Source: Anaerolineae bacterium
GTDB taxonomy: Bacteria > Chloroflexota > Anaerolineae > J102
NCBI GenBank assembly: GCA_026991225.1
Contig: JALXCB010000162.1
Coordinates: 1-39,142, forward strand
DNA: 39,142 nt
Direction: 5' to 3'
Below, piece after piece: positions 1,925-38,902 of the stretch. Under the pieces are notes generated by a model that saw nothing but the letters and a program-made list of their open reading frames with translations, was not told the origin of the DNA and ran no database searches. Position 1 is the stretch's first letter. Every line of letters starts with the position of its first letter. The position numbers were made by a program, and so were the translations under genes.

Positions 1925-2418
1925 GGGAAGTTATGCTGGTCAGGACGCCGCTCGCCAACTCTTTCGACTTTGCTCAGGACAAGCTACGCAGACAGTTTCG
2001 TGTGTATTCGAACGTTTCATTGCGCTCGCCCGCTTCATCCAGCCGGTGTGGCCTCCTTCTGCACTGCGCCCGCCCGGAGAGGATGCTCCCTCTCGGCTTC
2101 TCTCGCGAGTACGTCGAATGAATTCAGGTCTGAGGGCGTTCCGCTGCATGTCCCCCTGCGGGGACATGTTTTCGCCCGGTTGGACCTGTCTGCGCAGGCA
2201 GACAGGCGGCCAAAGGTCCCTAGCCCCGACTTCAAGTCGGCGGGGTCAAGGCCCCCATGCAACCGGCTTGAGGTTTGCCAACAGTATCGTTCACCCGCGG
2301 GCGGCGGCGCGGCCAGAGAATCGTCTTTCATTGATGATCCAATGCGAACCAAAAGCCTTGGTTTCAATTTGCTTTCAGTTTAGAGGATCCCGTCTCGCGG
2401 CGCCCGGGACGCCGCCCA
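1925..2418. repeat. Composite repeat region after the Rhs module
   Basis: No gene is supported. The region holds the right copy of the 20-bp direct repeat (2025-2044) and several hairpins: catgtcccc/ggggacatg at 2147-2168, cctgtctgc/gcagacagg near 2186-2207 and ccccgacttcaagtcggcgg at about 2225-2243. The right end of an element with terminal sequence CCAACAGTATC lies at 2266-2288 and abuts TTCA. A terminus of the TAAACTAAA family lies near 2355-2383. Confidence 0.55.
2025..2044 (+). repeat. 20-bp direct repeat, right copy
   Basis: Perfect second copy of the sequence at 559-578. After it the sequence no longer follows the Rhs core, so this looks like the stump of another Rhs junction downstream of the partner gene. 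Confidence 0.45.
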
Positions 2419-3479: not shown

Positions 3480-3699
3480 CTGGGTGCGTCCCAAATTATT
3501 GGCGCGTTGCGCCTGGCGCCCCGGAGGTGAATCTCCGGGCTGGAAACGACGCCCCCTCAAGGGGGCTTTCAAGCTGGCACGCGTCAAAAACCGGGTTCAC
3601 CCGGCGTGGTTTTGTAGCCCGGCGCTTCAGCGCCGGATGGAGCCCGCATGACCGAATTCCTGACGACAACGCGATTTGCCAAAATTTTAGGACGCGCCT
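3480..3699. mobile_element. Hairpin-carrying element inserted at the tupA stop codon
   Basis: A 220-bp element bounded by imperfect inverted repeats GGTGCGTCCCAAATTATTGGC (3483-3503) and the complement of 3678-3698 (differences at four positions) and by a 7-bp direct repeat CCAGCTA (3473-3479 and 3700-3706). On the minus strand the right copy reads TAGCTGG, whose TAG is the tupA stop codon. The interior is a complete four-hairpin module (3520-3636). No coding capacity. Confidence 0.65.
3520..3636. repeat. Four-hairpin module, copy 1
   Basis: Four palindromes in a row: 3520-3539 (CCCGGAGGTGAATCTCCGGG), 3551-3566 (GCCCCCTCAAGGGGGC), 3591-3604 (CCGGGTTCACCCGG) and 3619-3636 (CCGGCGCTTCAGCGCCGG). 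The linkers 'ctggaaacgac' and 'gtggttttgtag' are conserved in the other copies, whereas the stems differ in sequence but remain paired. Confidence 0.8.
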
Positions 3700-6922: not shown

Positions 6923-7241
6923 AGTTGGTTTATCTGTATCCGTATTGGGTGTTTTGTGAGACTGAGCCAGGATGGTGGAAAGTGTTCAGTATTCCGTTCC
7001 AGGACGGTTATTTTGCGGATCATGCTTTTTCGCTGACTCACTCGACTGAACACTGAGCACTTCGACAATGTCGCATTTCCCGGCCACGCCCGGAGCTGAA
7101 GCTCCGGGCTACGAAACGACGCCGGGTGAACCCGGCTTTTGGCGCACGCGACCCGCCAAAAGCCCCGTTCACGGGGCGTGGTTGCTAGCCCGCAGGTTCA
7201 CCTGCGGGCGTCCGAGCGCGAATATGACATTGTCAGGATAC
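6923..7241. repeat. tig-clpP spacer containing a hairpin module
   Basis: No gene is supported between tig and clpP. The tig-proximal half is the hairpin module at 7089-7208. The clpP-proximal half holds 'tgttcagtattccg' and 'cactcgactgaacactgag', short ACTGA-rich sequence related to the heptamer repeats elsewhere. No convincing clpP promoter could be picked out. Confidence 0.5.
7089..7208. repeat. Four-hairpin module, copy 2, with an extra central hairpin
   Basis: Palindromes at 7089-7108 (CCCGGAGCTGAAGCTCCGGG), 7121-7136 (GCCGGGTGAACCCGGC), 7162-7177 (GCCCCGTTCACGGGGC) and 7189-7208 (CCCGCAGGTTCACCTGCGGG), all perfect apart from a two-base loop, plus a central hairpin with arms ttttggcg (7137-7144) and cgccaaaa (7154-7161). 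The linkers are 'ctacgaaacgac' and 'gtggttgctag'. In this position it could act as an attenuator or mRNA-stabilising structure between tig and clpP, which is inference. Confidence 0.85.
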
Positions 7242-19285: not shown

Positions 19286-20117
19286 GGGACGGTCTACGTA
19301 GTCCCGTAAACCGGTAGACCAGGAAACCAGAAAACCAGGAAGACCAAGAAGACCGGGCCGCGTCGCTTGCCCACCCGGTCTACTGGTCTACCGATACAGA
19401 TGAAAATGCCTCGCGGCCAAAGTGGCGCGGGAAGCCAGGCACGTAATGCGTAATGCGTAAGGTCGTCACGGATTACGCATTACGCATCACGCCGGTCGCC
19501 GCCTCGCCCAACGTGGGCTTGGCGATTTTTGGTAGGCAGGGCCAACGCTATTTTCAGAACAGTCCGATCTTCAAGCCATGTCCACGCTGAAGCTGCGTCG
19601 CCCGATGCGGTAGGGTTCGGTGCGGGCGAGCGCCCGCCCAACCCCGCGCCCCGCTTGTGGCGGCGGATGGGCGAGGGGGCGCGAAGTGCTCTGGCCTCTG
19701 GCGTTCCGGCCCTCTGGCCCTCTGGCTCTCTGACCTCCACGGGCCGTCGTTCCGTAGCCCGGGGGCTTCAGGATACTGTTGGTTTACCTGGGTGCGTCGA
19801 GGATGCGCCCCCTCCCGGCCTCCCTCGCTGTACGGGGGAGGAGGTCTTTACTCCGGAAAAAGGGCTTATTCCTTGAAAATCGACTGGGTTCGGGCGTCCC
19901 CCTCCCCCGATACTCGCTCCGCTCGTGTTCGGGGGAGGGGCGCAGGAGTGGGGGCAGCGTTGGCAGATCGCCGCCTCTGCTGGTTTGTTTTGCAGCCGGC
20001 TTGGGGTTTGCCAACAGTATCCTTCAGCTCCGGGTGGCCGAGGCCGAAAACACCTGATTTCAAAATGCGTTTAGTTTAAATTCCGGTCAATCACCCAACA
20101 GGATTCACAAACTCCAG
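19286..20117. repeat. 832-bp repeat mosaic after metF
   Basis: No gene is supported. In order: a 'ggtagaccaggaaaccag' inverted repeat (19291-19393, relative at 38555-38663), a full copy of the taatgcgtaa palindromic family (19394-19566), an inverted 'ggccctctggccctctggct' tandem run (about 19690-19740), a hairpin split by an inserted element (19771-20021), and a TAAACTAAA-family terminus (20070-20078). Such layering suggests repeated insertion into a neutral site. Confidence 0.6.
19771..20021. mobile_element. GATACTGTTGG-ended element inserted in a hairpin apex
   Basis: An element of about 251 bp with inverted ends GATACTGTTGG (from 19772) and CCAACAGTATC (to 20021). CTTCAG is present on both sides (19766-19771 and 20022-20027), so the duplication is 4 to 6 bp. 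Joining the flanks restores a hairpin of the multi-hairpin family, with the flank CTTCAG at its apex. Single ends of the same element abut TTCA at 2288-2293 and 38714-38720. The interior holds gggggagg hairpins and no gene. Confidence 0.68.
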
Positions 20118-21626
20118 TCATTGCGGCATGGTGAAATTTGCGCCCAGGATGATGACGATGTCGGCCTGGAGCTGATCGGGCGCGCCGGGCCGGATATCCT
20201 GGTCGGAAACGCCGAGCAAATCGGCCAACTGTCGCACGATGGCATCATGCCCGCCCCCCTCGATGATCTGCGTGGTCGCGTAATCGTTGCGGTCCGCCTG
20301 ACCGATGCCCACGATATTGTAGCCGTAGGAGATGAGGATGTCAGAGACCTCCTTCTCCAGATCGGGCGTGGTCGTGCCGTTGAGGACGATGATGCGCACC
20401 TCCTGCCCGGTGGGCGTCGCGCCCGGCTGGGATGCAGCGTCCGCCGGGGAGGTGGCTGTAGGCGGGATCGTCTGGCTCTGGCCCGACCCCTCCGCGTTGT
20501 CCGCCGCAAAAAAGTCGCTGATGGCCGCCTGGATCCGGTCCATCTTGGGCATGAGCACCCAGGCGCCCGTATCCGTGATGGTGGGCTCCACCATGTCCAC
20601 GTCGATGATCAGCCGCCGGACGTTGTCCAGATTCATGTTCCGGGCCATGTTGGCCAGCGCAATCATCTTGCTCAGGGGCATGTCGGTCTGGATGGAGTCG
20701 GAGAGGATGTTGAGCAGGGCCGGGGCGCGCACGATGAGTCGGGGCAGCTCGCCCGTGCTCAGCACCTTGTCCTTCACCGCCATGATCACCTGCTGCTGAC
20801 GCTCCATCCGCCCGAAATCGCTGTCCACATGGCGGGTGCGGGCGTATTTCAACGCCAGGTCCGCATCCATGCAATAGTGGCCCGGCTCGATGTAGAGGGG
20901 ATCGTAGCCGTAATTGTCGTCGGGGAAGGTGGGATCGTCAATGAGTTTGGGCACGTCGATGTCGATGCAGCCGATTTCCTCCAACAGCTTGCGGAAGCCC
21001 TCGAAATTGATGCGGACGTAATAATCCACCGGCTGGCCGATGAGGCTCTCCACCGTCTTTTTGGCCAGCGCGGGCCCGCCGCCGGGATAATTTTTGGCGT
21101 CACCGATGACATGGGCGCTGTTGATACGCGTCTCCCAATAGCCGGGCACCTGCACCCACAGGTCGCGGGGGAAGGAGATCATGCCCACGTCGCCCGTTTT
21201 CGGGTTCACGTGCAGCAGGATCATCGTGTCTGTGCGGAAATAGCCCTTCTCGTTGGGACGCTGATCGATGCCCAGGAGGAGGATGTTGACCGGGTCTTGC
21301 GTTTCCCAGAAGGAATCGGTTGGGATTTCGGGCGTGGCGTTGACGGCCGCGCCGGGAAGCGTTTCGCCTGGATGGGACTCCGGGTTTTGGGGCGAATCGG
21401 CCAGGGCTTGCTGCAAACCATCCTCCCGATGGCTTCCAAACAACAGGGGATGCGCGTCCGCCTGGGGCGAGGCGAGGAGGATGGAACGGGCCGTACGGAA
21501 GAACAGGAAACTCGCGTAGAGGAAAGAGGCCAGGAAGATCACCAAAAGCAGGCCCAATAGCCCGCCCGAAAAGAGTTTTCCGGTTGGCGAAGCGTGTTTT
21601 GAGGGGTGTTGCATGGGTTGCGTCAT
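20118..21626 (-). CDS. LytR-CpsA-Psr (LCP) family cell-wall ligase with LytR C-terminal domain
   Basis: A 502-residue membrane protein from ATG 21626. One membrane segment follows a cytoplasmic N-terminus (SGGLLGLLLVIFLASFLYAS). The LCP catalytic domain has NILLLGIDQRPNE, FRTDTMILLHVNP and VGMISFPRDLWVQVPG, with conserved Arg and Asp that bind lipid pyrophosphate, then ALKYARTRHVDSDFGRMERQ. The C-terminal LytR_C domain is VRIIVLNGTTTPDLEKEVSD and onward, after a Ser/Thr/Pro-rich linker. LCP enzymes transfer polyprenyl-linked glycopolymers onto peptidoglycan outside the membrane. This start is preferred because TAAACT lies seven bases before it; the open frame extends 19 codons further upstream. 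A MITE lies beyond the promoter. Confidence 0.92.
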   Translation of the reverse strand: MTQPMQHPSKHASPTGKLFSGGLLGLLLVIFLASFLYASFLFFRTARSILLASPQADAHPLLFGSHREDGLQQALADSPQNPESHPGETLPGAAVNATPEIPTDSFWETQDPVNILLLGIDQRPNEKGYFRTDTMILLHVNPKTGDVGMISFPRDLWVQVPGYWETRINSAHVIGDAKNYPGGGPALAKKTVESLIGQPVDYYVRINFEGFRKLLEEIGCIDIDVPKLIDDPTFPDDNYGYDPLYIEPGHYCMDADLALKYARTRHVDSDFGRMERQQQVIMAVKDKVLSTGELPRLIVRAPALLNILSDSIQTDMPLSKMIALANMARNMNLDNVRRLIIDVDMVEPTITDTGAWVLMPKMDRIQAAISDFFAADNAEGSGQSQTIPPTATSPADAASQPGATPTGQEVRIIVLNGTTTPDLEKEVSDILISYGYNIVGIGQADRNDYATTQIIEGGGHDAIVRQLADLLGVSDQDIRPGAPDQLQADIVIILGANFTMPQ

Positions 21627-21633
21627 AGCCTGA

Positions 21634-21639
21634 AGTTTA
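21634..21639 (-). promoter_or_regulatory. -10 box, leaderless promoter of the LCP gene
   Basis: Minus-strand TAAACT with seven bases to the ATG at 21626 and a weak -35-like TTGCAG 17 bases upstream (21657-21662). There is no room for a Shine-Dalgarno in the resulting mRNA. Confidence 0.45.
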
Positions 21640-21691
21640 CTCTTTTCGCTCAAAAGCTGCAAAATCCCGCCATCCCGGCGCATGACAAATC

Positions 21692-25973: not shown

Positions 25974-26104
25974 GGGAGACGTTAGAGAGGGTAGGAGAGG
26001 ATGGAAATTGAATGTGGAAAGATGAGTAACTGCTAAGGTAGTTGGCCCCAATCGCCTCTCTTTTGCCACGAAGACACGAAGGAAACGAAGGCGCGAAGCC
26101 ATTC

Positions 26105-26353
26105 TAAACTAAAAGCAAATTGAAACCAAGGTTTTTTGGTTCGCATTGGATCATCCATGTAAGGCGATTCTCTGGCCGCGCCGCCGCCCGCAGGTGAACC
26201 TGCGGGCTAAAAAACGACGCCCCATAAATGGGGCTACGGCGCATGTCGCATGCCGCGGAAAGCCGGGTTCACCCGGCGTCGTTTCGTAGCCCGGAGCTTC
26301 AGCTCCGGGTGGACGAGGCCGAAAACGCCTGATTTCGAGATGCGTTTAGTTTA
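26105..26353. mobile_element. TAAACTAAA-ended element carrying a four-hairpin module, nested
   Basis: A 249-bp element with termini TAAACTAAAAGCA and (complement of right end) TAAACTAAACGCA. The left third ('ttgaaaccaaggttttttgg') matches 2335-2383 in reverse; the right third ('gtggacgaggccgaaaacgc') matches 20030-20078 and, in reverse, 38665-38710. The centre is a complete four-hairpin module. It is nested in the MITE at 26026-26417, so it moved in later. Confidence 0.7.
26187..26309. repeat. Four-hairpin module, copy 3
   Basis: Palindromes at 26187-26206 (CCCGCAGGTGAACCTGCGGG), 26219-26234 (GCCCCATAAATGGGGC), 26262-26277 (GCCGGGTTCACCCGGC) and 26290-26309 (CCCGGAGCTTCAGCTCCGGG), with a weaker central hairpin around gcatgtcgcatgc. 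The linkers 'ctaaaaaacgac' and 'gtcgtttcgtag' are complementary to each other, so the whole module is one large palindrome of palindromes. Confidence 0.85.
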
Positions 26354-26417
26354 AAAAGATTTTTATCCGTGTTTCCTCGTATCCGTGTCGAGTGAACAGG
26401 ACTACGTTAGTAGTTAC

Positions 26418-35706: not shown

Positions 35707-35876
35707 TCTCTGGACTCTGGAACCTCTGCCCCCCTCCAACCTCCCCTCGGACTTCGACCCCCTCCCGTCCTTCCCCGCGAAGCGGGGGAGAGGATGCTGT
35801 CGAGCGAATCGGCGCGGTAAAACCTCTCTCCCCCGAAGCGAGCGGAGCGAGTATCGGGGGGCTGGAGAGGGGGCAG
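35707..35876. repeat. Repeat sequence after the FGE fragment
   Basis: GC-rich hairpin sequence, e.g. 'cccccgaagcgagcggagcg' followed by 'agtatcgggggg', related to 'ccccgatactcgctccgctc' at 19905-19930. No gene is supported here. Confidence 0.45.
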
Positions 35877-38437: not shown

Positions 38438-38902
38438 AAACCTATTTTATCATAACTTCCCCCACCCGGCCTAGAACGTGAGTCCGATTACATTCAAGGG
38501 GCGAGAAGCCGATTGAGTCTTGTGCGACATGGCTCGCCGATACGAACGAAAACGGCGGGGCGCGTAGCCCCGTAACCCGGTAGACCAGGAAACCAGGGAA
38601 ACCAGGCCGTTTGGCTCACCCTCCCGGTCTACTGGTCTACCGGTTTACTGGTTTCCTGGTCTGCTAAACTAAACGCATTTTGAAATCAGGTGTTTTCGGC
38701 CTCGGCCACCCGGAGACTTCATGATACTGTTGGCAAACCTCAAGCAGGACCCCCGGCATGGCTAACACCAACGTGCAGGTGGACGGGCTCCCGCCCGCGG
38801 TTCTAGCCCGCGATTTCGGGCGCAGGGGCGGCTCGGGCCTCGGGTCGGACGAGGCGGCCGCGCGCCGAGGGGATATTTTTCTACCTCCCACGCCATCGGT
38901 GC
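38438..38902. repeat. Repeat mosaic before the terminal lipoprotein gene
   Basis: Includes a 'ggtagaccaggaaaccaggg' inverted repeat (38555-38663, relative at 19291-19393), a TAAACTAAACGCA terminus (38665-38677) and then 'cggcctcggccacccggaga' leading to TTCAT followed by GATACTGTTGG (from 38720). The part from 38780 to 38900 is GC-rich with small palindromes and no recognised gene. Confidence 0.5.
38444..38449 (-). promoter_or_regulatory. Extended -10 box, leaderless promoter of the Crp/Fnr gene
   Basis: Minus-strand TGATAAAAT (TG-A-TAAAAT) with six bases to ATG 38437. No -35 or Shine-Dalgarno is apparent. Confidence 0.5.

Follow-up and report, generated by a model that had tools for sequence, protein, structure and literature searches.

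A GC-rich hairpin in the 39,142-nucleotide stretch of Anaerolineae DNA analysed here (hereafter the window) is interrupted at its loop by a short non-coding segment, which raises the question of what this segment is and how it came to lie there. We consider it probable, at roughly four chances in five, that it is a MITE with IS1182-type terminal inverted repeats that inserts into hairpin loops and duplicates the loop in doing so, its most likely mobiliser being an IS1182-family transposase acting in trans.

The segment had initially been annotated as a 251-bp element at 19771-20021. The element is real, but its start was off by one: the base preceding GATACTG is G here and C, T or A in other copies, and therefore belongs to the target rather than to the element, which leaves 250 bp (Table 1). 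Its two terminal repeats face inwards, and the open reading frames that overlap it are all spurious, in agreement with its description as non-coding. CTTCAG is present on both sides, as annotated, and the flanks when rejoined give CCCGGGGG-CTTCAG-CTCCGGG, a hairpin whose loop is CTTCAG. This hairpin belongs, as had been proposed, to the family found in the surrounding repeat modules, and intact copies of it stand at 26259-26313 and 3587-3641 of the window. An Rfam search of the window returned two tRNAs only, with no match to the element or the modules.

Table 1 Features of the element, its target hairpin and related repeats in the window.
Feature	Position	Strand	Remark
MITE, type-I core, non-coding	19772..20021	+	terminal inverted repeats GATACTGTTGGTTTAC / GATACTGTTGGCAAAC
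Loop copy CTTCAG, left	19766..19771	+	duplicated
Loop copy CTTCAG, right	20022..20027	+	duplicated
Target hairpin, left arm CCCGGGGG	19758..19765	+	
Target hairpin, right arm CTCCGGG	20028..20034	+	
Right end of the ~250-bp palindromic module hit by the element (...GCGTTTAGTTTA)	20022..20080	+	60 bp identical to intact module
Intact palindromic module, hairpin loops unoccupied	26103..26353	+	paralogous empty site (right flank + hairpin)
Intact hairpin module	7089..7218	+	empty loops at 7097 and 7197
Truncated element copy, type-II core	2079..2288	+	right end adjoins GTTCAC at 2289-2294
26-bp right-end remnant	38723..38748	-	adjoins loop ACTTCAT (38716-38722) and module arm (38665-38715)

The ends of the element recur throughout the genome. 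GATACTGTTGG occurs four times exactly in the window and five times when one mismatch is allowed (0.33 expected), and 35 times exactly in the whole genome as against once for a reversed-pattern control. Near matches to the 16-base end number about 50 in the genome, the exact 16-mer was found 70 times in a sister species (G014), and BLAST with the element as query returned 63 matches in the window's genome. Pairing of ends in this genome, G010 and G014 yielded 39 copies, mostly 200-250 bp long. Multiple dispersed copies in both species, and a length of 250 bp without a transposase gene, well within the bound of about 500 bp, are features of a MITE. Two further ends in the window had been reported to abut TTCA, and both (at 2288 and 38723) do so, but they belong to truncated copies, the one at 2079-2288 having lost the first 27 bp of its left end while matching a full copy at 97.6% identity from base 28 onwards.

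Within the element, the core contains an inner hairpin, CCCCCGATACTCGCTCCGCTCGTGTTCGGGG (19904-19934), which is also present at 35830-35860 and, without the element, in many other places in the genome in both orientations; the MITE core thus contains a further repeat. An inner hairpin of the core appears flipped between the window (19908-19935) and another copy (L002). Alignment of the elements revealed two core types, I and II, that are unrelated to each other, yet the ends are common to both. One copy (L014, compared with L013) has a type-II left end joined to a type-I core, and cores appear, from such alignments, to have been exchanged between element copies.

The target is itself a dispersed repeat. 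The hairpin pattern CCGNNGNTKMANCNNCGG was found at 369 sites in the genome and at 8 in a control, often as pairs 98-102 bp apart. When 14 genomic hairpin modules were aligned with the window module at 26103-26353, they fell into two families, the commoner of which is ~250 bp long with terminal repeats CTAAACTGAAAGC / GCGTTTAGTTTA; it is found genome-wide and, in the window, at 26103-26353, 7089-7218, 3587-3641 and 166-387. The first of these folds as a branched palindrome with a DNA z-score of -6.2. The element was found in module hairpins B (CCCGCAGG-TGAA-CCTGCGGG) and C (CCCGGAGC-TTCA-GCTCCGGG). The abundance of this type of hairpin is limited to the window's species, with only 2-18 sites in sister genomes, and its abundance there means that the MITE accumulates inside the palindromic repeat. 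G014 has 18 of these sites, plus a second hairpin, CCCGGCG-ACTTCAT-CGCCGGG, with a 7-nt loop. The loop of hairpin B reads TGAA in most modules and TTCA in L320, L330 and L331, with unchanged surroundings, and looks as if it had been flipped (modules L318-L331; window 26193-26198), as does the inner hairpin of the MITE core.

The duplication flanking the window's element was also seen elsewhere. The 39 paired copies comprise 29 with distinct flanks. In 10 of these, the junction shows a perfect direct repeat of 6-7 bp, and 3 more have one with a single mismatch (13/29). Random re-pairing of left and right flanks gave a mean of 1.9 exact duplications and a maximum of 7 in 2000 trials. Re-pairing of the stems does not discriminate (mean of 15.4 and maximum of 21 against 20 of 29 observed), because hairpins of one family are able to cross-pair. 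The duplicated bases, which serve as the 6-7 bp target site duplication of the MITE, make up the loop when the hairpin is rejoined and vary with the hairpin (CTTCAG, GTTCAG, CTGAAGC, ACTTCAT, AATTCAT, CTAAAAC), and full stems on both sides together with a duplicated loop form the single commonest pattern among the copies. Since each hairpin type carries its own matching duplication, the insertions are independent events. In L124, L019 and L288, the loop bases are inverted rather than direct across the element (e.g., CTGAAC / GTTCAG).

It could be argued instead that the element includes its hairpin flanks, that module and MITE were amplified as a composite unit, and that the direct repeats do not stem from target duplication. 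The flanks are indeed repeats themselves, and contig C100 of the window's genome (150-1406; L016-L018) has a 527-bp unit three times in tandem, each with one copy of the element and with flanks alike across the repeats. Nonetheless, copies of one and the same element occupy several unrelated types of hairpin, with matching loop copies in each case, while hundreds of hairpins are empty and an empty paralogue has a single copy of the loop. This reading is already disfavoured, and we regard it as very improbable.

Unoccupied counterparts of filled sites were found in both species. Window positions 26259-26355 correspond to the right flank and hairpin without the element (60 bp of right flank align to an intact module at 100% identity), and a filled site in G014 (TTTTATAGCCCGGCGACTTCAT / element / ACTTCATCGCCGGGCGGGTGGCGGCTAGCGC; L111) has an empty paralogue (L094) in which ACTTCAT occurs once. 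These empty sites are paralogous rather than orthologous because synteny stops at the element: the neighbouring gene (20118-21683) is kept in all 8 sister genomes, yet in every one of them the conserved order breaks off on the side of the element, and no orthologous empty site was found.

A preference for TTCA as target had been put forward in the initial annotation. Inspecting the flanks of the termini, we found that nearly all ends adjoin half-hairpins and that TTCA or TGAA lies within the last 8 bases at 66 of 82 junctions (4.5% by chance), with TTTA or TAAA present in most of the remaining junction loops. Such figures are what one would expect if a short word, TTCA (or TTYA), were recognised, with hairpins being hit merely because the loop of an abundant repeat holds that word. 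However, one strand of the window alone has 159 TTCA, of which 5 lie in long-stemmed hairpins, whereas the ends are nearly all at half-hairpins. Moreover, the same ends are also found in CTAAAGA and CTAAAAC loops, and the common factor is thus a hairpin with a 6-7 nt loop. The enrichment at junctions stands, but TTCA is largely a property of the local hairpin loops, and recognition of the word itself is unlikely.

The CTAAAGA case comes from another family, f16, which includes genomes G097 and G120. In G097, a 216-bp element (L292:1823-2038) separates CACGGGG-CTAAAGA from CTAAAGA-CCCCGTG, and the hairpin CACGGGG-CTAAAGA-CCCCGTG is itself repeated, with 42 occurrences in G097, 7 in G139, 4 in G120 and 0 in controls. 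Judged from these sequences, f16 is an independent replicate of the loop-inserting design on an unrelated stem. Since its CTAAAGA loop is duplicated, the rule is that a 6-7 nt hairpin loop becomes the duplication, and TTCA is not required. The annotated case of a non-coding element inserted with duplication into the loop of a repeated hairpin is thus one of many, in two species and in this further family.

A clear duplication is lacking in 16 of the 29 paired copies. In L002, L009 and L027, the outer halves of both module hairpins are kept and the ~95 bp between the two loops are missing, as might be expected if the element replaced part of the palindrome, with the loop repeats being incidental. 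This has been proposed for IS1272 and TnSha1, which delete their target hairpins (PMC5678879, PMC4923244). Yet the intact loop duplication with both full stems is the commonest pattern, and in the window the stem-loop is not deleted, both arms and two loops being kept, as in 12 other copies. L025 presents the reverse case, with module interior on both sides of the element; the two interiors differ at three subtype-marking positions and come from different module subtypes, which points to recombination between element copies. We therefore find replacement quite unlikely. The simplest reading of copies that lack a duplication is that they have decayed or arose by recombination between MITEs residing in different hairpins. 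Ranked behind this simpler account is a tentative and rather doubtful rule in which the two ends act independently, each attacking a hairpin loop at its 5' edge. If true, attack on the same loop would give a duplication, and attack on the loops of two adjacent hairpins within one module would delete or duplicate the ~95-108 bp between them, so that one rule would cover both loop duplication and IS1272-like deletion, with a DDE transposase targeting extruded single-stranded loops.

We sought the autonomous partner whose existence had been anticipated from the ends. A class-wide search with the 16-base end led to G120 (C297; L288:1049-2810), in which two perfect ends 1,762 bp apart enclose a 563-aa ORF that scores 337.6 bits against NF033551 (IS1182 family transposase; cutoff 270) and has DUF772 and DDE_Tnp_1_6 domains. 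Both termini of this element are GATACTGTTGGCAAAC, its right end has about 20 bases in common with that of the MITE, and its flanks are half-hairpins in the style of the MITE flanks (TTTAGCTCGGGGGTTCAG and a near mirror image), with the inverted loop copies mentioned above. A de novo search around other IS1182 transposases of the class showed that elements in G071, G252 and G039 likewise carry GATACTGTTGG at both of their ends, so that the terminal inverted repeats of the MITE are shared with autonomous elements in these genomes and G120. Several more IS1182 elements have GATACTGTTGG at one end or with 1-2 changes, including the broken copy in the family member G016. A hairpin setting is not clear for same-tip IS1182 elements of other families, and the G039 element shows ATAGTATT, a direct repeat of 8 bp, but no strong stem. 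An autonomous element with the same ends thus exists, but outside the window's genome: no L288-related IS1182 gene was found in this genome (G000, 97% complete) or in G014, in assemblies that are 97-98% complete. The mobiliser is now absent from these genomes, missing from the assembly, or too diverged.

Two other leads were rejected. In G014 (C117), a 2,040-bp span between perfect ends contains a 550-aa ORF with AlbA_2 and HATPase_c_4 domains, which was considered as a mobiliser; the span also holds a second right end with a half-hairpin (L111:3494-3530), and an 81% homologue in G015 is without such ends. The span appears, from its sequence, to be composed of a truncated element, the gene and a complete element: a 60-bp right end stands on one side of the AlbA_2/HATPase_c_4 gene and a full-length MITE on the other (L111:1672-3711). 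The 2,040 bp sit wholly in one hairpin with ACTTCAT duplicated, and the gene may be carried between two MITEs. The named genomes were searched with the 14-mer CAGGATACTGTTGG; one match had a near-match partner end no more than 2.5 kb away but lacked hairpin flanks, and we attribute these matches to chance.

We propose that the MITE is moved by an IS1182-family transposase acting in trans, with each MITE end being joined to a GC-rich hairpin on the 5' side of its loop, presumably at a time when the palindrome has been extruded, either as a cruciform or as a single strand. Repair of the two staggered joints would then copy the 6-7 nt loop to both sides, and the ~250-bp palindromic repeat, with its ~370 hairpin sites, would supply targets in bulk. 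We infer that the transposase recognises structure rather than sequence. Insertion into loops accounts for the nested repeats in these genomes.

The initial annotation cited IS1397- and IS621-type elements as precedents. The closest relatives are instead IS1272 and TnSha1, as the same-tip autonomous elements encode IS1182 transposases. These two IS1182-family elements of staphylococci, TnSha1 being a composite transposon, target hairpins with little preference for primary sequence and remove part or all of the hairpin without a target duplication (PMC5678879, PMC4923244). The present system resembles them in its hairpin targets and in the NF033551 DDE transposase of its same-tip autonomous elements. 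It differs in that the hairpin is kept and its 6-7 nt loop duplicated, and in that a non-coding MITE of 200-250 bp is inserted into a hairpin that is a dispersed repeat. IS1182 hairpin targeting was previously known from staphylococci, with destruction of the target, and duplication of the loop had appeared only as a hypothetical route in a figure (Fig. 13c of PMC5678879). It is now seen in dozens of natural insertions from two species and in a replicate from another family, and these offer a ready set of substrates with which to ask whether structure (a cruciform or single-stranded loop), and not sequence, is what a DDE transposase reads. Neither IS1182-type MITEs nor duplications equal to the loop are described in the literature on hairpin- and REP-targeting elements compared here. 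SMR-A of Haloquadratum walsbyi is likewise a non-coding element (~110 bp) with terminal inverted repeats that inserts in palindromes of other mobile repeats, in its case archaeal IS605/PATE ends (PMC3119063). SMR-A shows no target duplication and has no identified transposase (PMC3119063), whereas here the loop is duplicated and IS1182 elements with the same tips are known. The insertion sequences that target REPs (ISPsy8, ISPa11, ISPpu9/10, ISRm19/22 and IS1397; PMC1525189) have in common with our element the insertion into repeated extragenic palindromes, but are set apart by their descriptions as coding, proteobacterial elements. Set beside these systems, the element fits best as a MITE belonging to an IS1182-type system in which insertion duplicates the loop.
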